Source: [Mycobacterium] vasticus
GTDB lineage: Bacteria; Actinomycetota; Actinomycetes; Mycobacteriales; Mycobacteriaceae
Direction of reading: 5' to 3'
NCBI RefSeq assembly: GCF_020181595.1
Contig: NZ_CP084028.1
Location: 3,004,401 to 3,068,400, forward strand
Length of the DNA: 64,000 nucleotides
The notes under the pieces were generated by a model. It was given only the letters and a program-made list of their open reading frames with translations. It searched no databases and was not told the origin of the DNA. This document shows positions 15,277 through 30,172 of the stretch, in pieces (the stretch's first letter is position 1; every line of letters begins with the position of its first letter). The translations under genes and the position numbers were made by a program.

Positions 15277-15337
15277 AGCTGGTGTGACGGTCGCCACCCA
15301 GTGCCAGGGTTTAAGAACCGACCCTTTGGAGGCTGAC

Positions 15338-16783
15338 ATGACCGCACCAAGCACCACCAAGCTGGACCGCCTGGCCGACGTGCTCGACGATGCTGTGATC
15401 GAGGACCGTGACGCCGGTATCTATCGGGTCAACCGCCGGATCTTCACCGACCCGGACATCTTCGACCTGGAGATGAAATACATCTTCGAGGGCAACTGGA
15501 TCTTCCTGGCCCACGAGAGCCAGATCCCCAACCCCGGTGACTACTTCACCACCGACATCGGCCGCAGCCCGGTGGTCATCACCCGCGACAAGGACGGGCA
15601 GCTGCACTGCCTGGTCAATGCCTGCTCGCACCGCGGCGCGATCCTCTGCCGCCGCAAGACCGACAACCGGATGACGTTCACCTGCCCGTTCCACGGCTGG
15701 ACGTTCCGCAACGACGGCAAACTGCTCAAGGTCAAGCTGCCCGAGGGCGCCGGCTACCCGCCGGAGTTCGACACCAACGGATCCCACGACCTGACCAAGG
15801 TGGCCCGCTTCGAGAGCTACCGCGGCTTCCTGTTCGGCAGCCTCAACCCCGACGTCGTGCCGCTGACCGAATACCTCGGCGACGCAGCGAAGGTGATCGA
15901 CCTGCTGGTCGACCAGTCCCCGCAGGGCCTGGAGGTGTTGCGCGGCACCTCGACCTACACGCTGCACGCCAACTGGAAGGTGCAGATCGAGAACGGCGCC
16001 GACGGATACCACGTGACCTCGGTGCACTGGAACTACGCGGCCACCACGTCGCGACGCACCACCGGTGACTCCGCCTATGAGACCAAGGTGCTCGACGCCT
16101 CCAAGTGGGCCGCGGACGGCGGCGGCTACTGGTCGTTTCCGCACGGCCACATGTGCCTGTGGACCCAGGCCGCCAACCCCCAGGACCGACCGCTGTACGG
16201 CGAGATCGATCGGCTGCGGGAAGCGCACGGGAAAGCCAAGGGCGAGTTCATGGTTGCCGGCTCCCGCAACCTGTGCCTGTACCCCAACGTTTACCTGATG
16301 GACCAGTTCTCCACCCAGATTCGCCGGATCAAGCCGATCTCAGCCGACCGGACCGACATCAGCATCTGGTGCATCGCGCCCAAGGGCGAGAACCCCGAGG
16401 CCCGGGCCAACCGGATCCGTCAGTACGAGGACTTCTTCAATGCCACCGGGATGGCGACCCCCGACGACCTGGAGGAGTTCCGATCGGTTCAGAACGCCTT
16501 CCACTCCAGCACCGCCCAATGGAACGACGTCAGTCGCGGCGCCCAGCACTGGCTCGCCGGTCCGGACCCGGTGGCCAAGTCCCTCGGCATGGACCACGTC
16601 CTCTCCTCGGGGGTCAAGGCCGAGGACGAAGGCCTGTTCGTCGTGCAGGACCAGTACTGGCTGGAGGCCATGCAGGACGGGCTGGAAAAGGAACGAGCCC
16701 GGGAGCAGGCGATCGCAGCCGCGATCAGCGCCGGCCGCGCCCTCCGCGCCAACAGGACCCACCCGAGCCCCTGCGACCACTGA
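15338..16783 (+). CDS. benA: Benzoate 1,2-dioxygenase, large (alpha) subunit
   Basis: A 481-residue Rieske oxygenase subunit. The Rieske [2Fe-2S] ligands are Cys96, His98, Cys116 and His119 (CSHRG and CPFHGW). The mononuclear iron region follows in DGYHVTSVHWNY. With BenB and the BenC reductase it cis-dihydroxylates benzoate. The ATG at 15338 is chosen because GGAGG lies 5 bases upstream and the longer frame is atypical. It is the first gene of benA-benB-benC/D. Confidence 0.95.
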   Translation: MTAPSTTKLDRLADVLDDAVIEDRDAGIYRVNRRIFTDPDIFDLEMKYIFEGNWIFLAHESQIPNPGDYFTTDIGRSPVVITRDKDGQLHCLVNACSHRGAILCRRKTDNRMTFTCPFHGWTFRNDGKLLKVKLPEGAGYPPEFDTNGSHDLTKVARFESYRGFLFGSLNPDVVPLTEYLGDAAKVIDLLVDQSPQGLEVLRGTSTYTLHANWKVQIENGADGYHVTSVHWNYAATTSRRTTGDSAYETKVLDASKWAADGGGYWSFPHGHMCLWTQAANPQDRPLYGEIDRLREAHGKAKGEFMVAGSRNLCLYPNVYLMDQFSTQIRRIKPISADRTDISIWCIAPKGENPEARANRIRQYEDFFNATGMATPDDLEEFRSVQNAFHSSTAQWNDVSRGAQHWLAGPDPVAKSLGMDHVLSSGVKAEDEGLFVVQDQYWLEAMQDGLEKERAREQAIAAAISAGRALRANRTHPSPCDH

Positions 16784-16795
16784 ACGGAGCATCAG

Positions 16796-17320
16796 ATGAC
16801 CACCGCTACCCCCACCCAGACCGGTGCCAAGCACATCACCCAGAACGCGATCGAGGCGTTCCTCTACCGTGAGGCGCGCTATCTCGACGACCGCGAGTTC
16901 GAGAAGTGGCTGGAGTGCTACGGCGACGACGTCGTGTTCTGGATGCCCGCCTGGGACGTCGACGACCGGCTCACCGAGGATCCCCAGACCGAGGTGTCGC
17001 TGATGTACTACCCGAACAAGGGCGGCCTGCACGACCGGGTCTTCCGGATCCGCACCGAGCGATCCTCGGCGACGTCACTGCCGGATCCACGCACCAGCCA
17101 CAACATCGCCAACGTGGAGGTCATCGAGCGGCGTGGCGACGTGGTCGACGTCCGGTTCAACTGGCACACCATGTATTACCGCTACGAGGCGGTCGACCCG
17201 TACTACGGGACGTCGTTCTACACCATCGACTTCTCCGGCGAACAGCCGCTGATCCGGCGAAAGACGGTGGTGCTCAAGAACGACTACATCGACCACGTCG
17301 TGGACATCTACCACATCTGA
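16796..17320 (+). CDS. benB: Benzoate 1,2-dioxygenase, small (beta) subunit
   Basis: A 174-residue ring-hydroxylating dioxygenase beta subunit of the SnoaL-like fold. Family features are AIEAFLYREARYLDDREFEKWLE and the W-rich DVVFWMPAWDVDDR segment. It is structural in the alpha3beta3 oxygenase. It begins 12 bases after benA and ends 10 bases before the BenC-type frame. Confidence 0.95.
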   Translation: MTTATPTQTGAKHITQNAIEAFLYREARYLDDREFEKWLECYGDDVVFWMPAWDVDDRLTEDPQTEVSLMYYPNKGGLHDRVFRIRTERSSATSLPDPRTSHNIANVEVIERRGDVVDVRFNWHTMYYRYEAVDPYYGTSFYTIDFSGEQPLIRRKTVVLKNDYIDHVVDIYHI

Positions 17321-17330
17321 GGACCTCACC

Positions 17331-20072
17331 ATGACCGTCACATCGCACCCGGAGACCTCAGCCGACACCACCGACGCGGCGCCGCTGCACCAGGTGGCGC
17401 TCGGATTCGAAGACGGCGTCACCCGGTTCATCAACTGCGCCGAGGACCAGACGGTCGCCGGCGCCTCCTATCGCCAGCGGATCAACATCCCGGTGGACTG
17501 CCTCGATGGCGTGTGCGGCACTTGCAAGGCTTTCTGTGAGTCCGGAACCTACGAGCTCGGTGACTACGTGCCCGATGCGCTCACCGAAGACGAGGCCGCA
17601 GCCGGCTACTGCCTGCCCTGCGTGATGAAACCGCGGTCGGACGTCGTACTGCAGATCCGCAGCACCTCCGAGGTCGCCAAAACTCAGGCCGGCACCTTCT
17701 CGGGCACGCTGGTCACGCTCGAGCGGCTCTCGCCGACGACCATGCTGGTCGGGTTGGAGATCGCCCATCGCGCCGAGCTGACCTTCCTGCCCGGCCAGTA
17801 CGCCAACATCGTCGTGCCCGGCGCCTCCCCGACCGAGAAGGTGAGCCGGTCGTATTCGTTCAGCAATGCTCCCAACGACGACCGGCTGACGTTCCTGGTG
17901 AAACTGACTCCCGGCGGGGCGATGTCGACCTACCTCACCGATCGGGCGGCGGTCGGCGACCCCATCGAGTTCACCGGACCGCACGGGTCGTTCTTCCTGC
18001 GCGAGACCGAGCGCCCGGTGCTGTTGCTGGCCGGCGGCACCGGGCTGGCGCCGGTGCTGGCGATCCTGCGCAAGCTCCGAGACGACGGCAGCCGGCGCCG
18101 CGCCCACCTCATCTACGGCGTCAGCACCGACGATGACCTGGTGGAGCTCGACGCGCTCGCCGAACTCGCCACCGGACTACCGGGTTTCAGCTGGGACTAC
18201 TGCGTCTCGGACCCCGACAGCTCCGCACCCAACCGGGGTCCGGACAAGGCCCACGTGACCAGCCTGATCGCCCCCGAACACCTCTACGACGGTGACGTCG
18301 CCACCTACGTCTGCGGCCCGCCGCCGATGGTCGAGGCGGTGCGCAAGCACCTCACCGACGGCGACGTCGCGCTGACCGGCTTCTACTACGAGAAGTTCGC
18401 GCTGGCGGTGCCCGGCGCCAGCGAGGCCCCCGCCGCCGAGACCGCCGCCGAACCGGGCGGGCTGCCGAGCCCCGCCGTGCCGGCCGAAGATCTGCTCACC
18501 GCCCCCGACGCGCGAGCGGTGATCGGCCAGGTCATGCTGCCCGCCGCCACCATCGACCCGTGGCCGGATGCGGTGGTCACCACGCCCGAGGGCGACACCG
18601 CCCGTCGTATCCTCGGTCAGCCGCTCACCCCGGCTGGTGCCGGTGGCGTCACCGTGCCCCTCGACGAGGGCGGTCCGCTGTCGGAAACAGGCGCACGCTC
18701 GGTCCTCGGCCAGGAGCTCTTCGCGGCCGTGTCCACCCCCGGGCCCTCGGCTGCGCCGACCGTCCCGGCGCCCACTGTCGCCCCCGACGGCTACCAGATC
18801 GGCGAGGAACACCCGGCGGTGCACGAATCCGACGCGATCTTCGAGGCCCGCGAGGCACTGGAGCTCGGTGCGGTGGAACTGACTCTGGGCCGGCTGACCA
18901 GCCAACAACTCACCGGCTACCGGCTGCTGGCAGAGTCGACGCTGCCCTACGTCGACGGCGACCGTCTGGTCGACGCCACCCAGTACACCGAGACCAACGC
19001 GGCGTTCCACGAGTACCTGTTCACCCTCACCGGCAACGAACACCTGCTGCAGGCCTACCAGGCCCTCGGGGTGAAGGGCCGGATGGGCGAGGTGCTGCGC
19101 AACGCCACCTGGTGTCACCCGCTGTGCGCCCAGGACCACGTCGACATCGTCGCGGCGTTCGAGGCCGGCGACCGCACCGGCGCGCGGGGTCTGATCTCTG
19201 CGCACGCCGACCGGGCCAAGCAGACCATGCGCCGCGCGATGGCCGACGCCCTGGCCGAACGGCGCCCGAGGTTCATCACCCCCGGCCGCTTCGCCGGCAA
19301 GGTCGTGGTGGTCACCGGGGCCGCACAGGGCATCGGCGAACGCACCGCCCGGCGGATCAACGCCGAGGGCGGCACGCTGGTGCTGGCCGACCGCTCCGCA
19401 CTGGTCGACGAGTTGGCCCGGGAGCTCGCCGAGGAACCGGTCGCCGGCAGTCCGCAGACCCTGGCGGTCACCGTCGACCTCGAACAGCCCGAGGGTGCTA
19501 CTGATCTTGTGCAACAGGCACTTTCGCGGTTCGGCCGGATCGACGTGCTGATCAACAATGTGGGCGGGGCGATCAACTTCAAGCCGTTCACCGAGTTCAG
19601 CGGCGCCGAGATCCGCGCCGAGCTGGACCGTTCGCTGCTCACCACGCTGTTCGCTTGCCGCGCCGTGCTGCCCTCAATGGTGACCCACGGGCAGGGGGTG
19701 ATCGTCAACGTCTCGTCGGCGGCCACCCGGGGCGTCAACCGGATTCCGTATTCGGCGGCCAAGGGCGGCATCAACGCGATCACCGCGTCGCTGGCGATGG
19801 AGTACGCCGACGCCGGCATCCGGGTCTGCGCCACCGCGCCGGGCGGTACCCAGGCGCCACCTCGCCGGATCTCCCGCGGCACACCGGAGGCCGGCAGCGA
19901 CACCGAGCGGGCCTGGTTTCAGGCCCACATCGACCAGACCATCGACTCCTCACTGCTCAAGCGTTACGGCACCCTCGACGAGCAGGCCGCCGCGATCTGC
20001 TTTCTGGCCTCCGACGAGGCGTCCTACATCACCGGGACGGTGTTGCCGGTCGCCGGCGGCGATCAGGGCTGA
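17331..20072 (+). CDS. benC/benD: BenC reductase - FCD domain - BenD dehydrogenase fusion
   Basis: One 913-residue frame with three modules. Residues 1-360 are BenC: plant-type [2Fe-2S] cysteines 57, 62, 65 and 97, FAD motif RSYSF at 173, NAD motif GGTGLAP at 235 and CGPPPM at 328. Residues 385-470 are a linker with three repeats. Residues about 500-645 look like the FCD ligand-binding domain of GntR regulators (NAAFHEYLFTLTGNEHLL, then HVDIVAAFEAGDRTGARGL), with no DNA-binding domain. Residues 652-913 are BenD, an SDR: TGAAQGIG at 662, Tyr807 and Lys811. BenC passes electrons from NADH to BenAB; BenD oxidises the cis-diol to catechol. In well-known ben operons these are separate genes. Confidence 0.9.
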   Translation: MTVTSHPETSADTTDAAPLHQVALGFEDGVTRFINCAEDQTVAGASYRQRINIPVDCLDGVCGTCKAFCESGTYELGDYVPDALTEDEAAAGYCLPCVMKPRSDVVLQIRSTSEVAKTQAGTFSGTLVTLERLSPTTMLVGLEIAHRAELTFLPGQYANIVVPGASPTEKVSRSYSFSNAPNDDRLTFLVKLTPGGAMSTYLTDRAAVGDPIEFTGPHGSFFLRETERPVLLLAGGTGLAPVLAILRKLRDDGSRRRAHLIYGVSTDDDLVELDALAELATGLPGFSWDYCVSDPDSSAPNRGPDKAHVTSLIAPEHLYDGDVATYVCGPPPMVEAVRKHLTDGDVALTGFYYEKFALAVPGASEAPAAETAAEPGGLPSPAVPAEDLLTAPDARAVIGQVMLPAATIDPWPDAVVTTPEGDTARRILGQPLTPAGAGGVTVPLDEGGPLSETGARSVLGQELFAAVSTPGPSAAPTVPAPTVAPDGYQIGEEHPAVHESDAIFEAREALELGAVELTLGRLTSQQLTGYRLLAESTLPYVDGDRLVDATQYTETNAAFHEYLFTLTGNEHLLQAYQALGVKGRMGEVLRNATWCHPLCAQDHVDIVAAFEAGDRTGARGLISAHADRAKQTMRRAMADALAERRPRFITPGRFAGKVVVVTGAAQGIGERTARRINAEGGTLVLADRSALVDELARELAEEPVAGSPQTLAVTVDLEQPEGATDLVQQALSRFGRIDVLINNVGGAINFKPFTEFSGAEIRAELDRSLLTTLFACRAVLPSMVTHGQGVIVNVSSAATRGVNRIPYSAAKGGINAITASLAMEYADAGIRVCATAPGGTQAPPRRISRGTPEAGSDTERAWFQAHIDQTIDSSLLKRYGTLDEQAAAICFLASDEASYITGTVLPVAGGDQG
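18501..18731 (+). repeat. Three diverged ~30-residue repeats in the BenC-FCD linker
   Basis: Residues 391-407, 421-436 and 452-468 of the fusion read DARAVIGQVMLPA, DTARRILGQPLTPA and TGARSVLGQELFAA. Each has an AR-x2-[IL]GQ-x-[ML] core and the copies are spaced 29-31 residues apart by Pro/Gly-rich sequence. They look like short helical docking motifs rather than a random linker. Confidence 0.6.
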
Positions 20073-20109: not shown

Positions 20110-22749
20110 GTGGCGGTGAGCAGATCGGCCGCGGCATGCGTCGGACGTGATCACGAGCTGGCTGAGCTGGCCGGGTTTCTCGATGCCGCCGCAACACGCG
20201 GCGCCGCAATGGTATGCATCACCGGTCCGTCCGGAATCGGTAAAACCGCCCTGCTGCGTCGCCTCACCGAGACCCACCGCGGTCCGGTGCACTCGGCACA
20301 GGCGATGGACTGGGAGACCGACAGTCCCGCCGGGGTTCTGCGTCAGCTGCTACAGGAATCCCCGCCGACCGAACCGGTCGCCGCGGCCGCCTGGCTGGCC
20401 GACCGGGTCACCGGCGACGGCCCGACGCTGATCGTCGTCGACGACGCCGAGTTCGCCGACCCGGTCTCGCTGAAAGCACTGAGCACACTGGTACGCCACC
20501 GGCAGTCCTCGGCGATCCTGGTGCTGCTCGCGATGACGACTCCGACTCCCCTGCTGGCCGGATTCGGTACCGAGGAGATCCGGTTGACCGGGCTTTCCCC
20601 CGCCGCGGTCGCCGACCTGGCCCGGCTGCGCGGCCGGGTGCTGCACCCGGCGATGGCCGAGCTGTTGACCCGCCACACCCGCGGCAATCCCCGCGACGTG
20701 CTCGCGCTGCTCGACGAGCTGCCGGCGTCGAGTTGGGCGCAGCCGGACGCCCGGCTGCCCGCCCCGGCGCACGTCACCGCCGACGTACGGGTTCGGCTCG
20801 ATCACTGCAGCGCCGACACCCGCGCCCTGATCGAAGCCCTGGCGATCCTGGACCCGGACGAATCCCTTGACGCCGCAACGCAGTTGGCCGGTCTGACCGA
20901 TCCGCTCGACGCGATCGACGAGGGCGTCGCAGCCAACTTGATCACTATGACGGCCGACCAACGCCCCCACCTTTGCGATCCGCTGACCACCGCCGCCGTC
21001 GTCGCCATCATGGGGGTGCGCGCCGTGGCGGCGGCGCATCACCGGGCCGCTGAGGTCGTCGTCGACCCGGCCCGCCGGCTGCGGCACCTGGTCGCGGCCA
21101 CCCCGACCACCGATCCGCAGCTGGCCGACCGCGTCGATCAGCTGGCGCACGACCGGTCCGGGGCCGGGGCGTGGGCCGAGGCCGCCGGGCTCTACCGCGA
21201 TGCCAGCCGGCTCACCGCCGATCCGCTGCTGCGCGACGAGCGGCTGACCCGGTCGGTGGATGCGCTGGTCGCCGCCGGGGACTGCGCGGGAGCGGCCACC
21301 TTGGTGCCGGTTGTGGAGAGCCTGCGGGAGACCCCGCTGCGCAACGCCGTGTTGGCCTACCTGGCAGTGCTTCGCGGCCGGGCGGCCGAGGCGGAGGTCC
21401 GGTTGCAACGCGCCTGGGACATCGTCAACGCCGAACGCGACCCGGCGACGGCGGCCCTGATCGCCCAGCGCCACGTGCTGAACTCGCTGATGCGGTGCCG
21501 CGGGGACGAGCTGGTCGGCTGGGCGGATCGCGCGATCGCGCTGGCCGGCGACGACTCCCCCGCCGGGCTCGAGGCCGCCGCGATCCGCGGACTCGGGCTG
21601 GCGGCGTCGGGCCGATCCCGCGAAGCCGCCGCCGGCTACGACGACCTCGGCGCGCGCGTCCGGGACGGGGCGCAGGCCCAGCGTGTCACGATGGGCCGCG
21701 GCTGGTTTCAGCTGAGCATGGACGAGGTCGACGGCGCCCGCAGCAATCTGGAGAGCGCCGTGGCGATGGCCGAGCTGGGCGGCTCGTCGCGAATCACGCT
21801 GTGGGCCCTCGCGTGGCTGGCCCGCGTGCAGTTCACCGTCGGAGACTGGGACCGCGCGCTGGACAGTGCCCGGCGGGGCCGCGAGCTGGCGGCCGGGACG
21901 GGCATCGTGCTGGTCACACCGCTGCTGGCATGGACCGAGGCCCAGGTGTACGCGCTGCGCGGATCCTGGCAGGCCGCCACTGCAGCAGTGTCGGCGGCGG
22001 ACGCGGTGACCGGCGACTACGAGCTGATGCGGCTTCCCACACTGATCGCCCGCGCCGGCCTCGCCGAGGCCGAGGCCGATCACGCCACCGTGCGGCGGGT
22101 TCTCGAACCGTTGACCAAAGCGTCCTGGGATCCCGCACAGCACGAACCTGCGCTGTGGCCGTGGGTTGACATGCTGGCGGGTGCGCTGGTCAGCGACGGC
22201 CAACTCGGTGCGGCCGAGGCGTTTTTGGGCTCCCACGAACGGTTCTGCCGCGGCCACCGGTCCGCGCAGGCGCGGCTGTCCGCTGCGCGCGGCAGGCTGT
22301 TGGGCGCCACCGGCGACCTCGCCGCGGCACGCCGGTGCTTCGACGAGGCACTGGCACTACTCGACGGACTGCCGATGCGCTACGACCTGGCCCGAATCAA
22401 CTTCGCCTACGGCCAGACGCTGCGCCGCGCCGGTAAGCGCCGCGATGCCGACCCGATCATCCGCACCGCCCGCGAGCTGTACCTGTCTCTGGGCGCGCAG
22501 ACCTTCGTCGACCGCTGCGAACGCGAACTCAAGGCCGGCGGCGTGCATCAACTGCGCGGTTCACGCCGCAACGCCGAACTCACCCCGCAAGAAGAGGCAG
22601 TGACAGCACTTGTCGCACAGGGTCTCTCGAATCGGGAGGTCGCCGCCGAGCTGTACATCTCGGCGAAGACGGTGCAGTACCACCTGACCCGCATCTACGC
22701 GAAACTGGAAGTGCGGTCGCGTTCCGAGTTGGCCGCACTGCGTCGCTGA
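20110..22749 (+). CDS. Large ATP-binding LuxR-family (LAL/MalT-like) regulator
   Basis: An 879-residue protein starting with GTG, 37 bases after the ben fusion. The Walker A motif is GPSGIGKT at residues 39-46 and a Walker B-like TLIVVDDAE follows. The middle is a long Ala/Leu/Arg-rich helical region of TPR type (about 330-800). The C-terminal 65 residues are a LuxR helix-turn-helix (LTPQEEAVTALVAQGLSNREVA...KTVQYHLTRIYAKL). LAL proteins activate promoters after binding an inducer and ATP. The location suggests control of the ben genes or the following bad/ali operon; which one is not shown. Confidence 0.88.
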   Translation: MAVSRSAAACVGRDHELAELAGFLDAAATRGAAMVCITGPSGIGKTALLRRLTETHRGPVHSAQAMDWETDSPAGVLRQLLQESPPTEPVAAAAWLADRVTGDGPTLIVVDDAEFADPVSLKALSTLVRHRQSSAILVLLAMTTPTPLLAGFGTEEIRLTGLSPAAVADLARLRGRVLHPAMAELLTRHTRGNPRDVLALLDELPASSWAQPDARLPAPAHVTADVRVRLDHCSADTRALIEALAILDPDESLDAATQLAGLTDPLDAIDEGVAANLITMTADQRPHLCDPLTTAAVVAIMGVRAVAAAHHRAAEVVVDPARRLRHLVAATPTTDPQLADRVDQLAHDRSGAGAWAEAAGLYRDASRLTADPLLRDERLTRSVDALVAAGDCAGAATLVPVVESLRETPLRNAVLAYLAVLRGRAAEAEVRLQRAWDIVNAERDPATAALIAQRHVLNSLMRCRGDELVGWADRAIALAGDDSPAGLEAAAIRGLGLAASGRSREAAAGYDDLGARVRDGAQAQRVTMGRGWFQLSMDEVDGARSNLESAVAMAELGGSSRITLWALAWLARVQFTVGDWDRALDSARRGRELAAGTGIVLVTPLLAWTEAQVYALRGSWQAATAAVSAADAVTGDYELMRLPTLIARAGLAEAEADHATVRRVLEPLTKASWDPAQHEPALWPWVDMLAGALVSDGQLGAAEAFLGSHERFCRGHRSAQARLSAARGRLLGATGDLAAARRCFDEALALLDGLPMRYDLARINFAYGQTLRRAGKRRDADPIIRTARELYLSLGAQTFVDRCERELKAGGVHQLRGSRRNAELTPQEEAVTALVAQGLSNREVAAELYISAKTVQYHLTRIYAKLEVRSRSELAALRR

Positions 22750-22842: not shown

Positions 22843-22860
22843 AATGAATCGTGATTCATT
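22843..22860. promoter_or_regulatory. 18-bp palindromic operator candidate, probably for the operon's TetR
   Basis: AATGAATC and GATTCATT are perfect reverse complements separated by GT. The site overlaps the predicted transcription start of the badI operon, the best place for repression. A tetR gene ends this operon, so it is the natural candidate to bind; the effector would be an acyl-CoA or acid of the pathway (inference). Confidence 0.6.
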
Positions 22861-22924
22861 CTTCATGAACCCTGACTCATTGTTCTCACCTGTTGACCAT
22901 CGGCAGCCCGACCCAGGAGATCCC

Positions 22925-23719
22925 GTGACCATCTACGAAGACATCACCTACGAGGTCGACGGCCCCGCGGCCGTCATCACCATCAACCGTCCGCACCGTT
23001 ACAACGCCTTCCGCGGCCAGACGGTGGAGGAGATGATCAAGGCGTTCCGGGCGGCCTGGGCCGACACCCGGGTCGCGGCGATCATCCTCACCGGTGCCGG
23101 CGAGAAGGCCTTCTGCACCGGCGGCGACGTCAAGCAGCGCGCCGAGACCGGCGACTACGGTCCCACCGAGAGCGGCATGTTCGAGATCGGCTACCTGCAC
23201 AAGCTGATTCGCGACGTACCCAAGCCCGTGATCGCCGCCGTCAACGGTGTCGCCATCGGCGGAGGTCACGTGCTGCACGTGCTGTGCGACCTCTCGATCG
23301 CCTCTCAGAACGCCAAGTTCGGTCAGGCCGGCCCCCGCGTCGGATCCTTCGACGCCGGCTTCGGGTCGGCGTTTTTGGCCCGGGTCGTCGGCGAGAAGCG
23401 GGCGCGGGAGATCTGGTACCTGTGCCGGCAGTACGACGCCGCCACCGCCGAGCGCTGGGGGCTGGTGAACTGGGTGGTTCCGGCCGACCGCCTGCTCGAC
23501 GAGGCGAAGTCCGTCGCCGCCGAGATCGCCGAGAAGAGCCCGACCGCGCTGCGCTTCCTCAAGCAGTCGTTCAACGCCGACACCGACCACCAGGCCGGGT
23601 TGAGCAACATGGCGATGTCGGCGCTGGAGATCTTCGTCCACACCGACGAGGGCAAGGAGGGCGCCGCGGCGTTCGCCGAGAAGCGTCCCGCCGACTTCGG
23701 CCAATTCGTCACCGCCTGA
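22925..23719 (+). CDS. badI: 2-ketocyclohexanecarboxyl-CoA hydrolase (BadI-like)
   Basis: A 264-residue crotonase-fold enzyme. It closely follows BadI of Rhodopseudomonas: YNAFRGQT, AFCTGGDV, IRDVPKPVIAAVNG, VGSFDAGFGSAFLARVVGEK, AREIWYLCRQYDA. BadI adds water to 2-ketocyclohexanecarboxyl-CoA and opens the ring to pimeloyl-CoA. MenB is the nearest alternative, but BadI and the SDR next door fit better. The GTG at 22925 is chosen: AGGAGA is 5 bases upstream, and the longer frame would begin on the predicted transcription start. Confidence 0.85.
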   Translation: MTIYEDITYEVDGPAAVITINRPHRYNAFRGQTVEEMIKAFRAAWADTRVAAIILTGAGEKAFCTGGDVKQRAETGDYGPTESGMFEIGYLHKLIRDVPKPVIAAVNGVAIGGGHVLHVLCDLSIASQNAKFGQAGPRVGSFDAGFGSAFLARVVGEKRAREIWYLCRQYDAATAERWGLVNWVVPADRLLDEAKSVAAEIAEKSPTALRFLKQSFNADTDHQAGLSNMAMSALEIFVHTDEGKEGAAAFAEKRPADFGQFVTA

Positions 23720-23745
23720 GATCGCACGACACCGGGAGCATCGCT

Positions 23746-24477
23746 ATGAGTAAGACAATCGCACTGGTCACCGGGGCCGGGTCGGGTATCGGTAAGGCGA
23801 TCGCGCTGGCCTTTGCCGCACAGGACGATCGGGTGATCGCCGCCGACCTCGACCTGGCCGCCGCGCAAGCCACCGCCAAAGAACACCCGGAGCTCGTCAC
23901 CGCACTGCCGGTCGACGTCTCCGACCGCACCCAGGTCGACGCGCTGCGCGACCGTGCGCACGCCGAGGTCGGCGTCCCCACCGTGGTGATCAATGCCGCC
24001 GGCTGGGACCGCACCGATCAATTTCTCAACGCCACAACCGAATTCGCCGAGAAAGTGGTGGCCATCAACTACCTGGGACCGGTGCACATCTGCAGCGCCT
24101 TTCTGCCCGGGATGATCGAGGCGGGCGGCGGACGCGTGGTCAACCTGGCCAGCGACGCCGGGCGGGTCGGCAGTGCCGGGGAGAGCATCTATGCCGGCGC
24201 CAAGGGCGGTGTGATCGCACTGACCAAGTCGCTGGCCCGTGAAATGGCCCGCCATGCGATCACCGTCAACTGCGTCTGCCCCGGGCCGACCGACACGCCA
24301 CTGTTTGCGGCTCAGCCCGAGAAGCTGAAAGAGGCTTTGGTGAAAGCGATTCCGTTCCGCCGGCTGGCCCGTCCGGAGGAGGTGGCCGCGCCGGCACTGT
24401 TCTTCGCCTCCGACGCCGCGTCGTTCATCACCGGCCAGGTGCTCAGCGTCAGCGGTGGCCTGACGATGGCAGGCTGA
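23746..24477 (+). CDS. badH: 2-hydroxycyclohexanecarboxyl-CoA dehydrogenase (BadH-like SDR)
   Basis: A 243-residue short-chain dehydrogenase. NAD motif TGAGSGIG is at the N terminus, followed by NAAGWD, LASDAGRVGSAGESIYAGAKGG (with the catalytic Tyr and Lys) and NCVCPGPTDTPL. These uncommon NAAGWD and SDAGRVGS segments match BadH, which oxidises 2-hydroxycyclohexanecarboxyl-CoA to the ketone that BadI cleaves. GGGAG precedes the ATG, 26 bases after badI. Confidence 0.83.
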   Translation: MSKTIALVTGAGSGIGKAIALAFAAQDDRVIAADLDLAAAQATAKEHPELVTALPVDVSDRTQVDALRDRAHAEVGVPTVVINAAGWDRTDQFLNATTEFAEKVVAINYLGPVHICSAFLPGMIEAGGGRVVNLASDAGRVGSAGESIYAGAKGGVIALTKSLAREMARHAITVNCVCPGPTDTPLFAAQPEKLKEALVKAIPFRRLARPEEVAAPALFFASDAASFITGQVLSVSGGLTMAG

Positions 24478-24486
24478 TCTGCGCCA

Positions 24487-26166
24487 ATGAGCACCGTCTA
24501 CGACCCCACCGCATACCGGGCATTCTTCGAGCGGGATTTCAACTATCTCAACGGGTTCCGCCGCAATGTCGCTAGGTACGGTGACCACCTGGCGCTCGCC
24601 GATCCGGTTACCGGTCACCGGCTGACCTACCGCCGACTCGGTGAGCGCGTCGATCGGATCGCCGCCGGCCTGCTGACAACCGGCGCGCAGCGCACCGATG
24701 TGGTCGCCTACCAACTGCACAACGGTCCGGAGTTCGCCGAGCTCTACCTGGCCACCCAGGCCGCCGGGCTGGTCGGGTCCCCGGTCAACTATCGACTGGC
24801 GGCCGGCGAAGTCGCCCACATCCTCGACTCCTGCCGGCCGACGGTGTTCATCTATGACGCCGAACTGTCCGCAACGCTGAGCGGTGCACTCGAACGCGCG
24901 TCGCACCGGCCGGCGGTGATCGTCGCCGTCGGCAACGATGAACCGATCCACGCTCCCGGCAGCGCGGTGATCCGCTACGCCGATCTGCTTGCCGAACAAC
25001 CGGTTCGGCTACCTGATCCGGGCCGCACCGTCTGGGACGAAACCACCCGGCTCTACACCTCGGGGACCACCGGGATGCCCAAGGCCGTCCCGCTGAACAG
25101 CATGATCGAGATATTCAGCGCGCACGACGTGATCATGCACTTCCCGATGACCCCCGACGACGTCACGCTGAACATGACGCCGTGGTTCCATCGCGGCGGA
25201 TTGTATTCGGGCGGGCCGAATCCGACGTTCTACGTCGGCGGACAGGTGGTTCCGATGCGCAACTTCGATCCCGCGAAGACGCTGGACATCATCGCCGAAC
25301 ACAGCGTCACCTTCCTGATCGGGGCACCCACCAACCTCGCGCTGCTGGCCGCCGCGCAGCAGGATCGCCCGCGTGATCTGTCCAGTCTGCGCGGCATCGT
25401 GACGATGGGCGCCCCACTGGAACGCGATGCGGCCCTGCACTATCAGCAGGTGTTGTACCCCCGGATCTTCAACGGTTACGGCAGCACCGAGGGGTTCTGG
25501 AACACCTTCCTGCGGCCCGGCGACCTGCCCGACCATGCCGGCAGCGCCGGGCGCAGCTGCACCGACGACGACGTGCGGGTCGTCCGGATCTACGACGACC
25601 GGCCGGCCGACCCGGACGACACCGTCGCCACCGACGGCAGCGACGTCGGTGAGGTGATCGTCCGCTCCCCCAAGTGCAGTGTCGGATACCTCACCGCCGA
25701 CGATCAGGAGCGGCAGAAATTCCGCAACGGCTGGCTACACGTCGGCGACCTGGCCACCTGGGACGCCGAGCAGTACATCACGATCGTGGGCCGCAAGGAC
25801 GACATGCTGGTCTCCGGCGGTGAGAACGTCCACCCGGTGCAGGTCGAGGAGGCCATCAACGAACACCCTCAGGTGTTGGACTCCCTGGTCGTCGGCGTGC
25901 CCGATCCGAAGTGGGGCGCGCTGGTGGTGGCCTACATCGTCTCCGGCCAGCCCACCCCCAGCGCCGAGGAACTCGACGAATTCTGCCGCTGCCACGCCCT
26001 GCTGTCACGATTCAAACGGCCGCGGGCCTATCGATTCGTCGACCGCCTGCCGATCTCGGCGACCGGCAAGAAACTCCACCACCAGGCGACGTCCACGGCG
26101 GCCGAGGAATTCGCCGCCGGCCGTTTCATCACACCGAATCCCCTCGACACAAGGACCGCCCGATGA
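24487..26166 (+). CDS. Acyl-CoA synthetase, probable cyclohexanecarboxylate-CoA ligase (AliA-like)
   Basis: A 559-residue ANL-family enzyme. The AMP-binding P-loop is LYTSGTTGMPKA; later motifs are NGYGSTEGFW, GWLHVGDLATWD and the catalytic lysine in SATGKKLHHQ. It would activate a carboxylic acid to its CoA thioester. Because it lies between badH and two acyl-CoA dehydrogenases, cyclohexanecarboxylate or a relative is the likely substrate, as for AliA. The stop overlaps the next ATG (ATGA). Confidence 0.75.
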   Translation: MSTVYDPTAYRAFFERDFNYLNGFRRNVARYGDHLALADPVTGHRLTYRRLGERVDRIAAGLLTTGAQRTDVVAYQLHNGPEFAELYLATQAAGLVGSPVNYRLAAGEVAHILDSCRPTVFIYDAELSATLSGALERASHRPAVIVAVGNDEPIHAPGSAVIRYADLLAEQPVRLPDPGRTVWDETTRLYTSGTTGMPKAVPLNSMIEIFSAHDVIMHFPMTPDDVTLNMTPWFHRGGLYSGGPNPTFYVGGQVVPMRNFDPAKTLDIIAEHSVTFLIGAPTNLALLAAAQQDRPRDLSSLRGIVTMGAPLERDAALHYQQVLYPRIFNGYGSTEGFWNTFLRPGDLPDHAGSAGRSCTDDDVRVVRIYDDRPADPDDTVATDGSDVGEVIVRSPKCSVGYLTADDQERQKFRNGWLHVGDLATWDAEQYITIVGRKDDMLVSGGENVHPVQVEEAINEHPQVLDSLVVGVPDPKWGALVVAYIVSGQPTPSAEELDEFCRCHALLSRFKRPRAYRFVDRLPISATGKKLHHQATSTAAEEFAAGRFITPNPLDTRTAR

Positions 26167-27353
26167 GCACCGCCACACCGCCCGCCCTCAACCCCAACGA
26201 TCCGCTCGGCTTGGACAGCACGCTCTCTGACGACGAGATCGCGGTGCGCGATACGGTCCGAAAATTCTGTGCCGAACACATCACCCCCTATGTCGCCGAC
26301 TGGTTCGAGGCCGGCGATCTGCCCGTCGCCCGGGAACTGGCCAAGCAGTTCGGCGCGCTCGGACTACTGGGCATGCACCTGCACGGTTACGGGTGCGCCG
26401 GGGCGTCGGCCGTGCACTACGGGCTGGCCTGCCTGGAACTCGAAGCCGCCGACTCCGGCATCCGGTCGCTGGTCAGCGTGCAGGGCTCGCTGGCGATGTT
26501 CGCGATCCACCACTACGGCTCCGAAGAACAGAAACAGCAGTGGCTGCCCGGCATGGCTGCCGGTGAGTTGATCGGCTGCTTCGGCCTCACCGAGCCCGAT
26601 GTCGGATCCGACCCGGGCTCGATGCGGACCCGGGCCCGCCGCGACGGATCCGACTGGGTGCTCAACGGCCGCAAGATGTGGATCACCAACGGATCCATCG
26701 CCGACGTCGCCGTCGTCTGGGCGGCCACCGATGAAGGGATCCGCGGATTCGTCGTCCCGGCCGGTACCCCCGGCTTCTCGGCCAACACCATTCACCACAA
26801 ACTGTCGCTGCGGGCCTCGATCACTTCCGAACTGGTGCTCGACGACGTGCGGCTGCCGGCCGCGGCGATGCTGCCCGGTGTGCTCGGGGTCAAGGGCCCG
26901 CTGGGCTGTCTGTCGGAGGCCCGCTACGGGATCGTCTGGGGCGCAATGGGAGCGGCACGTTCAGCCTGGGAGTCCGCGCTGGAGTATTCGACCCAGCGCA
27001 CCCAGTTCGGCAAACCGATCGCCGGATTCCAGCTCACCCAGGCCAAATTCGTCGACATGGCCGTCGAGCTGCACAAGGGCCAACTGCTCTCCCTGCACCT
27101 GGGCCGGCTCAAGGACTCCGTCGGCCTGCGCCCCGAGCAGGTCAGCTTCGGCAAGCTCAACAACACCCGCGAAGCCATCAAGATCTGCCGGGAGGCACGA
27201 ACCATCTTGGGCGGCAACGGGATCTCGCTGGAATTCCCGGTTATTCGGCACATGGTCAACCTGGAGTCGGTGCTCACCTACGAGGGCACCCCCGAGATGC
27301 ACCAACTCGTTCTCGGCCAGGCATTCACCGGCATCAACGCCTTCCGCGGATAG
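26163..27353 (+). CDS. gcdH: Glutaryl-CoA dehydrogenase
   Basis: A 396-residue acyl-CoA dehydrogenase. It shares with glutaryl-CoA dehydrogenase the block DSGIRSLVSVQGSL, whose Arg101 is the residue that binds the distal carboxylate, and YEGTPEMHQLVLGQAFTGINAF with the catalytic Glu374. The enzyme oxidises and decarboxylates glutaryl-CoA to crotonyl-CoA, the fate of pimeloyl-CoA after one beta-oxidation round. The start overlaps the ligase stop by four bases. Confidence 0.85.
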   Translation: MSTATPPALNPNDPLGLDSTLSDDEIAVRDTVRKFCAEHITPYVADWFEAGDLPVARELAKQFGALGLLGMHLHGYGCAGASAVHYGLACLELEAADSGIRSLVSVQGSLAMFAIHHYGSEEQKQQWLPGMAAGELIGCFGLTEPDVGSDPGSMRTRARRDGSDWVLNGRKMWITNGSIADVAVVWAATDEGIRGFVVPAGTPGFSANTIHHKLSLRASITSELVLDDVRLPAAAMLPGVLGVKGPLGCLSEARYGIVWGAMGAARSAWESALEYSTQRTQFGKPIAGFQLTQAKFVDMAVELHKGQLLSLHLGRLKDSVGLRPEQVSFGKLNNTREAIKICREARTILGGNGISLEFPVIRHMVNLESVLTYEGTPEMHQLVLGQAFTGINAFRG

Positions 27354-27364
27354 GACGGACAACG

Positions 27365-28513
27365 ATGAGCACCACACTGGAGTACAGCCCCGAACACCGG
27401 CAGTTCCGGGAGATGGTCGCCGATTTCGTGCAGCAGAAGGTCATCGGAGAGCATGAGGACCGGGAGCGGTCCGGCTGCTGGGATCGATCGCTGTTCACCG
27501 AAGCCGGCAAGCTCGGTCTGCTGGGATTCCCGGTTCCCGAGGAACTCGGCGGACCGGGTGTGCACGACTTCCGCTACCACGCCATCGTGATCGAAGAACT
27601 GCAGCGCGCCGGGGCGGCCGCCGAAGCCATCGCGTTCTCGCTGCAGAACGACGTGGTGCTGCCGTACCTGACCGAGCTGACCACACCCGAGCAGCGGCGG
27701 CGCTGGCTGCCCGGGGTGGTGACCGGCGAGACGGTGCTCGGTATCGCGATGACCGAGCCCGGCACCGGCAGCGACCTGGCCGGCATCCGCACTACCGCCC
27801 GCCGGGACGGCGATCACTACGTCGTCAACGGCGCGAAGACCTTCATCTCCAACGGCCAGACCGGCGACCTGTTCGTCGTCGCGGTACGCACCGGAGACGA
27901 CCGGCACCGGGGGTTGTCGCTACTGGTGGTCGAGGCCGACACGCCCGGTTTCGGTCGCGGCCGCAACCTGGAGAAGATCGGGCTGCACGCCCAGGACACC
28001 TCCGAGCTGACCTTCACCGACATGCGGGTGCCGGTCGCCAACCTGCTCGGTGAGGAGGGCCAGGGGTTCTTTCAGCTGGTGCGCAACCTGCCGCAGGAAC
28101 GCCTGTCGCTGGGAGTCGGTGCGGTCGCCGCCGCCGAGGGCGTGTTGGCCGAGACGCTGAAGTACGTCCAGGAGCGTCGGGCATTCGGTTCACCGATCGC
28201 CGGCTTCCAGAACACTCAGTTCGTGCTGGCCGAGGTCGCCACCGAGCTCGACATCGCCCGCACCTTCCTCGACGACTGCATCGCAGAACACCTGAGGGGT
28301 CAGTTGACCGCCGCGCGCGCCGCCAAACTGAAGTGGTGGACCACCGACCTGCAGGTACGCACCGCGGATCGCTGCCTGCAACTGTTCGGCGGCTACGGTT
28401 ACATGCGCGAGTACCCGGTGTCACGGGCATTCGTAGACGCCCGCATCCAGACGATCTACGGCGGTACGACTGAGATCATGAAGACGATCATCGCCAAGGA
28501 CCTGGGCATCTGA
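27365..28513 (+). CDS. Acyl-CoA dehydrogenase, candidate cyclohexanecarboxyl-CoA dehydrogenase
   Basis: A 382-residue FadE-type flavoprotein: MTEPGTGSDLAGI binds FAD, and GGYGYMREYPVSRAFVDARIQTIYGGTTEIMK is the C-terminal signature. The usual catalytic Glu of the YEGT motif is Gly here (YGGT), as in long-chain and isovaleryl types where the base lies on an earlier helix. Operon context suggests it makes cyclohex-1-ene-1-carboxyl-CoA (AliB role) or acts on pimeloyl-CoA; sequence alone does not decide. Confidence 0.75.
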   Translation: MSTTLEYSPEHRQFREMVADFVQQKVIGEHEDRERSGCWDRSLFTEAGKLGLLGFPVPEELGGPGVHDFRYHAIVIEELQRAGAAAEAIAFSLQNDVVLPYLTELTTPEQRRRWLPGVVTGETVLGIAMTEPGTGSDLAGIRTTARRDGDHYVVNGAKTFISNGQTGDLFVVAVRTGDDRHRGLSLLVVEADTPGFGRGRNLEKIGLHAQDTSELTFTDMRVPVANLLGEEGQGFFQLVRNLPQERLSLGVGAVAAAEGVLAETLKYVQERRAFGSPIAGFQNTQFVLAEVATELDIARTFLDDCIAEHLRGQLTAARAAKLKWWTTDLQVRTADRCLQLFGGYGYMREYPVSRAFVDARIQTIYGGTTEIMKTIIAKDLGI

Positions 28514-28539
28514 GGACCGATTGCCGATAGGAGGAGATC

Positions 28540-29184
28540 ATGACCGTCGACTATGGTCAGCTGCCCGTCGAGGAGGCGGTGCGCGCGGCCCGCACTGATT
28601 CACGGCGCCGTCAGATCCTCGATGCCGCCGTCAAAGTCATGCAGCGGACCGGCTTCCACCAGATGTCGATGCAGGAACTGGCCACCGAAGCCGACGTGAG
28701 TGTCGGGCTGATCTACAAGTACTTCGGCGGCAAAGAGGACCTGCTGCTGGCGACCATCATGCGGATCCAGGACGCGTTCCGCGACCAGCTCGCCCCTGTC
28801 ATCGCCGCCGCCGGCGACGACCCGGTCGCCCAGTTGACGGCCGGCATCCGGCGCTACATCGAGATCGTGGATGAGAACCTGGACGCGGTGGTGCTGACCT
28901 ATCGGGAGAGCCGCACCCTGGATGCGGCCGGACGCACGCAGATCAAGGACCTCGAAATATCCAGTGCCGCGCCGCTTCGCACCGTCATCGAGGCCGGGAT
29001 CGCCGCGGGGGTGTTCGGCGATGTCGATGTGGACCTGATGGTCTTCGACATCATGCTGCTCGCGCACGGGTGGGCGCTCAAGCACTGGCACTTCGGCGAG
29101 CTGTACAGCCTCGACGAGTACATCGGGCTGCAGACCCGCTTCGCGCTCAATTCGCTCATGCGCACCGGTACCGCCGATGAGTGA
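28540..29184 (+). CDS. TetR-family regulator of the bad/ali operon
   Basis: A 214-residue TetR protein. The helix-turn-helix is RRQILDAAVKVMQRTGFHQMSMQELATEADVSVGLIYKYFGGKEDLL-like (about residues 22-67) and the rest is an all-helical ligand domain. It lies 26 bases after the last dehydrogenase, with GGAGGAG before the ATG, so it is in the operon it probably controls through the palindrome at 22843-22860. Confidence 0.85.
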   Translation: MTVDYGQLPVEEAVRAARTDSRRRQILDAAVKVMQRTGFHQMSMQELATEADVSVGLIYKYFGGKEDLLLATIMRIQDAFRDQLAPVIAAAGDDPVAQLTAGIRRYIEIVDENLDAVVLTYRESRTLDAAGRTQIKDLEISSAAPLRTVIEAGIAAGVFGDVDVDLMVFDIMLLAHGWALKHWHFGELYSLDEYIGLQTRFALNSLMRTGTADE

Positions 29185-30172
29185 GCCACGGTTCTACGTC
29201 ACCGCGCCGATCCCCGACCCCGGACTGCCGATGCTGCGCGCCGCGGGCAGCGTCGAGATGCCCGACGTGGCACCGGATCCGGCCGCGCTGCGGCGGGCCT
29301 GTGAGTCCGGTGACTACGACGTGATCATCGCGCAGGTCCGCAATCCGTTCGACGCAGACCTGTTACGTACAGCCAGGATTCGCGGCATCTCGAATTTCGC
29401 GGTCGGATACGACAACATCGACGTGGCGGCGGCCACCGCCAACGCGGTGATGGTCGGCAACACCCCCGATGTGCTCACCGACGCCACCGCCGACATCGCG
29501 GTGCTACTGATGCTGGCGGTGGGTCGCCGGGCGGTGGAGGCGGATACGTTCGTGCGCACCGGGCATTTCTCCGGGTGGCGACCGGACATGTTCTTAGGTC
29601 GCGACATCTCCGGCGCCACCCTGGGGCTGGCCGGGTTCGGTCGCATCGGCCGCGCCACCGCGCGCCGGGCACTCGGCTTCGGCATGCGGGTACTGTTCAG
29701 TCCGCGCCCGCCGGGTGACCGGCACGTCGGTGACGACGAGCTCGGCGAGTTCGCCGGGCGGGTTCGCCAGGTCGGCTGGGCTGAGCTGGTGGGCTCCAGT
29801 GACTATCTGTCGCTGCATGTCCCGCTCACCGCCGAGACTCGTCATCTGGTGAACGCCGAGGTGCTACGGGCCATGAAATCGACCGCGGTGCTGATCAACA
29901 CCGCGCGGGGCCCGGTCGTCGACGAGGACGCGCTGGTGGCGGCGCTCAAGGCCGGTGAGATCGCCGGAGCAGGCCTGGACGTCTACGAGCACGAGCCGCA
30001 GCTGGCCGCCGGCCTGGCCGAGGTACCGAACACCGTGCTGCTCCCCCACATCGGCAGTGCCACGGTCTCGGTGCGCGCGGAGATGGCCAGGCTGTGCGCC
30101 GAGAACGCGATCGCGATGGCCCGCGGCGTCGTTCCGCCGCACCCGGTCAACCCGGAGGCCTGGAGGTCCTGA
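29177..30172 (+). CDS. D-isomer-specific 2-hydroxyacid dehydrogenase
   Basis: A 331-residue NAD(P)-dependent dehydrogenase. The Rossmann motif is GLAGFGRIGRATARRALGFG, the substrate Arg lies in INTARGPVVDEDAL, and the catalytic His is in LLPHIGSAT. The family reduces glyoxylate, hydroxypyruvate or similar 2-oxoacids. It overlaps tetR by eight bases, so it is expressed with the operon, but no step of the proposed ring-cleavage route needs it; its role is unknown. Confidence 0.8.
   Translation: MSEPRFYVTAPIPDPGLPMLRAAGSVEMPDVAPDPAALRRACESGDYDVIIAQVRNPFDADLLRTARIRGISNFAVGYDNIDVAAATANAVMVGNTPDVLTDATADIAVLLMLAVGRRAVEADTFVRTGHFSGWRPDMFLGRDISGATLGLAGFGRIGRATARRALGFGMRVLFSPRPPGDRHVGDDELGEFAGRVRQVGWAELVGSSDYLSLHVPLTAETRHLVNAEVLRAMKSTAVLINTARGPVVDEDALVAALKAGEIAGAGLDVYEHEPQLAAGLAEVPNTVLLPHIGSATVSVRAEMARLCAENAIAMARGVVPPHPVNPEAWRS

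Follow-up and report, generated by a model that had tools for sequence, protein, structure and literature searches.

The window, a 64,000-nucleotide stretch of the [Mycobacterium] vasticus genome, carries a ben operon in which the reductase BenC and the dehydrogenase BenD are joined, around an FCD module and a repeat-bearing linker, in a single protein (Table 1). This fusion is real, conserved and already reported; its new part is a repeat motif in the linker together with an intact metal site in the FCD module, neither of which appeared in the sequence-only reading of this DNA and both of which look new. The reading that we favour, with a probability of roughly 0.55 on the basis of sequence comparisons, is that of a bifunctional benzoate-to-catechol enzyme with added roles for the FCD module and the repeats. 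With NADH as donor, the BenC arm would supply electrons to BenAB, the oxygenase whose genes lie immediately before the fusion gene; BenAB would form the cis-diol, and the BenD end would oxidise this to catechol with return of NADH. The FCD module would be a regulator-type sensor that has no DNA-binding part; its most likely ligand would be the benzoate diol or an acid akin to it, and it would either hold the diol near BenD or tune activity, and the linker repeats would dock a partner protein, perhaps BenAB.

Table 1. Positions of the fusion gene, its modules and repeats, and the adjoining genes in the window
Feature	Position	Strand	Evidence
benA, benzoate dioxygenase large subunit, BenC partner	15284..16783	+	TIGR03229, 754.9 bits (cut-off 780.95)
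benB, benzoate dioxygenase small subunit	16796..17320	+	TIGR03232, 268.6 bits (cut-off 225.55)
benC-FCD-benD fusion gene, 913 aa	17331..20072	+	Open frame and family matches
BenC module, residues 20-357 ([2Fe-2S], FAD, NAD)	17388..18401	+	NCBIfam NF040810, 437.1 bits (cut-off 430)
Linker, residues 359-495, Ala/Pro-rich	18405..18815	+	Between module matches; composition; mostly pLDDT <50
Linker repeat 1, RAVIGQ, residues 395-400	18513..18530	+	
Linker repeat 2, RRILGQ, residues 425-430	18603..18620	+	
Linker repeat 3, RSVLGQ, residues 456-461	18696..18713	+	
FCD module, residues 503-627; N556, H560, H603, H625, R507	18837..19211	+	PF07729, 58.3 bits (cut-off 24.3); conservation; NanR alignment
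BenD module, residues 653-913 (SDR, Tyr807/Lys811)	19287..20069	+	NCBIfam NF040811, 396.7 bits (cut-off 380)
Large regulator, C-terminal LuxR-type HTH	20110..22749	+	Sub-cut-off matches only, to HTH

Catalytic modules in one reading frame

The frame runs uninterrupted through all 913 codons to a single terminal stop, as had been claimed from the sequence. Third-position GC is even across the modules (BenC 0.90, linker 0.87, FCD 0.91, BenD 0.89), so a frameshift joining unrelated frames is not suggested; as the identical fusion is also found across many independent genomes, we reject the idea that an assembly or frameshift artefact produced it, the chance of which is practically nil.

Each module scores above the cut-off of its own family (Table 1), which bears out the proposal that BenC, FCD and BenD lie on one chain, and the Pfam matches along the protein are Fer2, FAD_binding_6, NAD_binding_1, FCD and adh_short (154 bits). 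The residues named in the sequence-only reading are present and conserved: Cys57/62/65/97, R173-S176, G235-G238 and C328-P330 of BenC and the Tyr-x3-Lys pair Tyr807 and Lys811 of the SDR part are kept in 120 of the 120 listed homologues (of 1033, window included). The best PDB match of the BenC module, by sequence (E 6.9e-92) as well as by fold, is the benzoate dioxygenase reductase 1krh. No second copy of BenC or BenD was seen in the genome (4.55 Mb, one contig), where the other matches reach at most 33% identity to the BenC part and 39% to the BenD part. Judged by these family memberships and residues, the fusion almost certainly has both catalytic activities.

Because BenC and BenD are fused, both NAD sites lie on one chain. 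In each turn BenC would consume one NADH and BenD would produce one, and the NADH from BenD would be re-usable by the BenC arm of the same molecule; recycling within the chain is thus plausible from the domain content. The further proposal that the diol is channelled from dioxygenase to dehydrogenase does not follow from the fusion, given that oxygenation takes place on a different protein, BenA, and that 29 of 169 full-length fusions examined show no FCD match or just a remnant.

Operon and neighbouring genes

The genes benA and benB lie directly upstream of the fusion gene. BenA scores below its family cut-off despite the clear ben operon setting, and strict annotation could therefore miss the gene. 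The product of the large gene that follows the fusion is likely a ben regulator. On the opposite strand we found a catechol 1,2-dioxygenase above its cut-off. A muconate cycloisomerase-like protein, also on that strand, falls below its cut-off, as does a LysR-type regulator. Downstream of the operon, positions 22844-30172 (+) hold genes for a badI/menB-like hydrolase or synthase, an SDR (23719-24477) and acyl-CoA ligase-like, acyl-CoA dehydrogenase-like and 2-hydroxyacid dehydrogenase-like proteins; the scanned genes match families below the cut-offs, and by these matches the set resembles a cyclohexanecarboxylate-type pathway.

Distribution of the fused and split forms

All 120 listed homologues (of 1033, from 8000 candidates scored) have FCD, ferredoxin, FAD, NAD and SDR parts, at lengths of 851-965 aa. 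In a sample of 200 genomes at the order level, that of the window included, 12 reach the 1e-60 threshold; the frames concerned have 868-1394 codons, and in six of these genomes the match falls into two pieces of the same reported frame length. At the phylum level 4 of 396 genomes match; three are already in the order-level set, and the fourth has its BenC and BenD matches in separate frames of 538 and 351 codons. We then compared 80 loci, which are the best 80 of 587 confirmed relatives ranked by likeness to the protein P0229 and give no prevalence: 43 encode BenC-FCD-BenD, 13 BenC-FCD with a separate BenD, and 24 BenC alone. Fused forms occur in Mycobacteriaceae, Gordonia, Williamsia, some Rhodococcus, Nocardia, Amycolatopsis, Pseudonocardia, Kribbella, Nocardioides, Geodermatophilus, Dermatophilaceae and Propionibacteriaceae. 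The three-module architecture had been put forward as exceptional, with BenC and BenD known only as separate proteins; the many homologues and the fusion reported in Gordonia alkanivorans (PMC6362181) lead us to reject both points.

Among plasmids, 46 records match and none has 80% of the query in one place. In NZ_LR134459.1 of Tsukamurella tyrosinosolvens an annotated benC (90417-91805) matches residues 444-913 at 66%, and this plasmid likely carries a relative of the fusion. In another protein, P0174 (591 aa), the BenC frame continues into a match to PF03594, which we take to be the BenE family of benzoate transporters, instead of BenD; a deletion may have produced it, or it may be a further fusion.

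A conserved metal site in the FCD module

The claim of an FCD match over residues 500-645 holds, with the Pfam match above its cut-off and with profile matches to GntR/FCD regulators, of which only NanR is clearly significant. Profiles of 9 and of 18 FCD modules both have NanR as their best match in the PDB (E 0.0002 and 0.0009, respectively); the 18-module profile has 24 matches up to E 5, in which NanR is followed by 13 further GntR-type regulators (E 0.02-0.42) and then by 10 unrelated proteins. The assignment rests on profiles because the best 50 matches of a fold search with the whole model, reductase-type and SDR structures, include no FCD. The Pfam matches of the protein include no DNA-binding domain (N-terminal winged HTH), and by this measure it is not a GntR regulator.

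Within the module, N556, H560 and H603 are present in 120 of 120 listed homologues (of 1033, window included) and H625 in 119, with one gap; these four and R507 do not vary in any of the 56 loci with an FCD among the best 80 of 587, whether BenD is fused or separate. The first four align with Asp172, His176, His222 and His244 of NanR, giving the Asp/Asn-x3-His...His...His site. R507 falls outside the NanR alignment, which starts after it, and its equation with NanR Arg128 or CitO Arg97 is a guess. According to the accessible parts of the respective reports, zinc in NanR is held by these four residues and by the carboxyl and hydroxyl of sialate (PMC8012715), nickel in Ps5454 sits on Asn144/His148/His192/His214 (PMC7674646), CitO has an Asn/His/His site and needs a metal for citrate binding (PMC4746285), and the type member of the FCD regulators, FadR, lacks a metal site (PMC7674646). 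From the conservation of these residues, the FCD module very probably binds a metal.

The benzoate diol is an alpha-hydroxy acid; benzoate has no hydroxyl and catechol no carboxylate. The effectors described in the same parts of those reports for metal-bearing FCD regulators, sialate, D-galactonate and citrate, are alpha-hydroxy acids too (PMC8012715, PMC7674646, PMC4746285), and because of this shared chemistry we tentatively propose the diol as a candidate ligand. Given the conserved metal site, we infer from the same analogy that it is a better candidate than benzoate or catechol.

A repeat motif in the linker

The middle region had been described as a regulator-derived ligand domain; Pfam supports this for the FCD part, but the 137 residues before it are Ala/Pro-rich linker and not FCD. 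The motif of the linker has the consensus A-R-x-[IV]-A-G-Q-x-hydrophobic-[FL]-P and occurs mostly in one to three copies. In the best 80 of 587 loci the pattern R.[VILM].[GA]Q has 80 copies in 43 fusion linkers, with at least one in 39 and none as defined in 4, and the 37 non-fused BenC have no copy in their tails or linkers. Residue shuffles of the 43 linkers (n=1000) gave a mean of 0.58 copies and a maximum of 3; the shuffles ignore kinship, but outside the repeats the linkers of these proteins show little conservation. Positions outside the search pattern are also biased in the 80 copies, with A before R in 49, V/L/M/I at +7 in 77, F or L at +8 in 60 and P at +9 in 46. Copy spacings (n=41) are 28-43 residues in 32 cases and 60-72 in 9.

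A slightly looser pattern has at least one copy in all 109 delimitable linkers of the 120 listed homologues (11 not delimitable). At least one repeat is likewise kept in 28 of the 29 full-length fusions without an intact FCD (169 examined), and five BenC proteins that stand alone (P0218, P0224, P0225, P0226 and P0229) have one copy each in a short tail. The extended motif, scanned over six-frame frames of at least 90 aa (964,194 aa in all) in the best 80 of 587 loci, occurs 55 times in BenC-containing frames and never in other frames; with the loose protein pattern, six non-BenC frames in the 80 loci have at least two copies within 120 aa. A DNA pattern for R-x-[IVM]-A-G-Q matched 0.7 to 1.9 times as often as its reversed control in eight genomes, so single copies carry no information. 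Of the two genomes with all matching places listed, G081 has its sole close pair in the fusion and G000, whose own repeats do not fit the pattern, has no close pair.

The structure model (mean pLDDT 75.3, pTM 0.50) does not dock the repeats, which lie in a linker of pLDDT 34-58, and its domain placement is unreliable. It gives each repeat of the window a tiny strand pair (block pLDDT 41-58), which is a hint at most. The number, spacing and retention of the copies lead us to think that the repeats probably serve as short docking motifs for a partner protein. BenAB as that partner is possible and rather doubtful. A comparison of 44 fusion rows, the window among them, with the 37 other rows shows differences at 11 BenA and 5 BenB positions, with no clade-specific indels in either protein, and the differences follow the clade split. 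Halopolyspora algeriensis L074 has a mosaic ben operon in which a BenA with 7 of 10 fusion-type residues stands beside an unfused, motif-less BenC. Because of this combination BenAB is not favoured as the partner, and a binding site for the repeats on BenA or BenB is slightly disfavoured.

History of the fusion

A BenC tree of 95 rows was built from the 80 loci, the window and 14 hand-picked proteins, of which 12 are FCD-less fusions and 2 are tailed BenC. Every sampled BenC-BenD fusion falls in a single 58-row clade (support 100/96), which consists of 44 with FCD, the 12 FCD-less fusions and the 2 tailed BenC, which sit inside mycobacterial fusions. All 13 BenC-FCD proteins fall outside this clade; that of Corynebacterium, on a long branch, is its neighbour. 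All 13 split operons have a 4-base overlap between the stop of BenC-FCD and the start of benD (12 ATGA, 1 GTGA).

The FCD module is dispensable. Two protein searches yielded 169 full-length fusions, 25 of them without an FCD match and 4 with a remnant that scores below 100 bits, proportions that are not a rate since the second search admitted proteins of at most 840 aa. In Mycolicibacterium wolinskyi P0133, for example, the last FCD helix remains, and Nocardia P0200 retains both ends of the domain. The 12 FCD-less fusions are scattered in the clade, where they imply 10 changes, at least 7 of which well-supported branches require; this looks like repeated loss of the FCD. From the tree and the gene overlaps we infer an order of steps in which FCD would first have joined BenC, with benD then overlapping the BenC-FCD stop by 4 bases; BenD would next have fused onto BenC-FCD, with the appearance of the repeat linker; and FCD would have been lost many times thereafter. 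Independent gains of BenD may also be compatible with the tree.

Alternative explanations for the FCD module and the repeats

The best-surviving alternative is a plain gene fusion, in which a stop was lost between coupled genes and no channelling, sensing or docking arose, the FCD serving only for dimerisation or as a structural spacer, its site a vestige, and the repeats being linker filler. The 4-base overlap in every split operon fits this view, as do the FCD losses, scattered over the tree and seen in 29 of the 169 fusions; against it, the five FCD site residues are invariant in all 56 FCD-bearing loci, and the repeats are far above shuffles and nearly always outlast the intact FCD. We regard it as unlikely, if a genuine possibility. 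An extension of our own reading would make the fusion the core of a benzoate metabolon, with the FCD, set between the enzyme that drives diol formation and the one that consumes the diol, as a metal-dependent holder or gauge of the diol and the one to three repeats tethering the oxygenase or another pathway enzyme; it is more speculative and seems improbable.

The sequence-only reading had the FCD module sensing benzoate or catechol, which could adjust the enzyme or gene expression, and FCD is indeed described in the sections available to us as the effector-binding domain of GntR regulators (PMC8012715, PMC4746285, PMC7674646). The Pfam matches of this protein contain no DNA-binding domain, however, and LysR- and LuxR-type regulator genes already adjoin the operon. 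Neither benzoate nor catechol could chelate a metal as sialate does, and we consider such sensing quite improbable.

Targeting of the enzyme into a protein compartment is highly improbable and is rejected as a general explanation: cargo tags do resemble repeated short motifs in a disordered linker and the genome of the window has an encapsulin gene, but microcompartment shell genes (PF00936) occur in none of 12 fusion-bearing genomes and the encapsulin family (PF04454) in only 6, and no link of benzoate dioxygenase to encapsulin was found in the open literature.

Comparison with known systems

The bifunctional reading raises two questions. One is whether a sensor domain of transcription-factor origin binds the intermediate of an enzyme pathway; the other is which partner recognises the repeat motif, usually kept after the neighbouring FCD is lost. 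Answers would bear on enzyme channelling and on the engineering of benzoate or muconate pathways. A search of the open literature, with most subscription journals outside its range, yielded no text on a role of FCD or linker repeats in BenC fusions; the two papers that pair BenC with FCD (PMC6362181, PMC11858498) give the domain by name alone in the parts consulted.

The reductase 1krh resembles the BenC module and, at 338 residues, differs from the fusion in having neither FCD nor BenD. NanR, CitO, DgoR and Ps5454, as far as the consulted portions of their descriptions go, share the FCD fold and the Asp/Asn-His-His-(His) metal pattern; they are transcription factors, whereas the FCD of the window sits between two enzymes. 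Rhodococcus BenC-FCD proteins (for example that of R. jostii, L061) have the same FCD after BenC with the same site residues, but BenD is a separate overlapping gene, and the linker in eight such loci is 29-56 residues long without repeats; the benC of Rhodococcus TG-1 is annotated as an FCD domain-containing protein in the relevant part of its report (PMC11858498). The closest known system is that of Gordonia alkanivorans YC-RL2, another genus, for which the ben passages of the 2019 genome paper describe benC and benD fused with an FCD domain, as in the window, and an operon with a LysR-type regulator upstream and a LuxR-type regulator downstream, again as in the window; unlike the present analysis, those passages give no function, linker repeats, metal site or distribution (PMC6362181).
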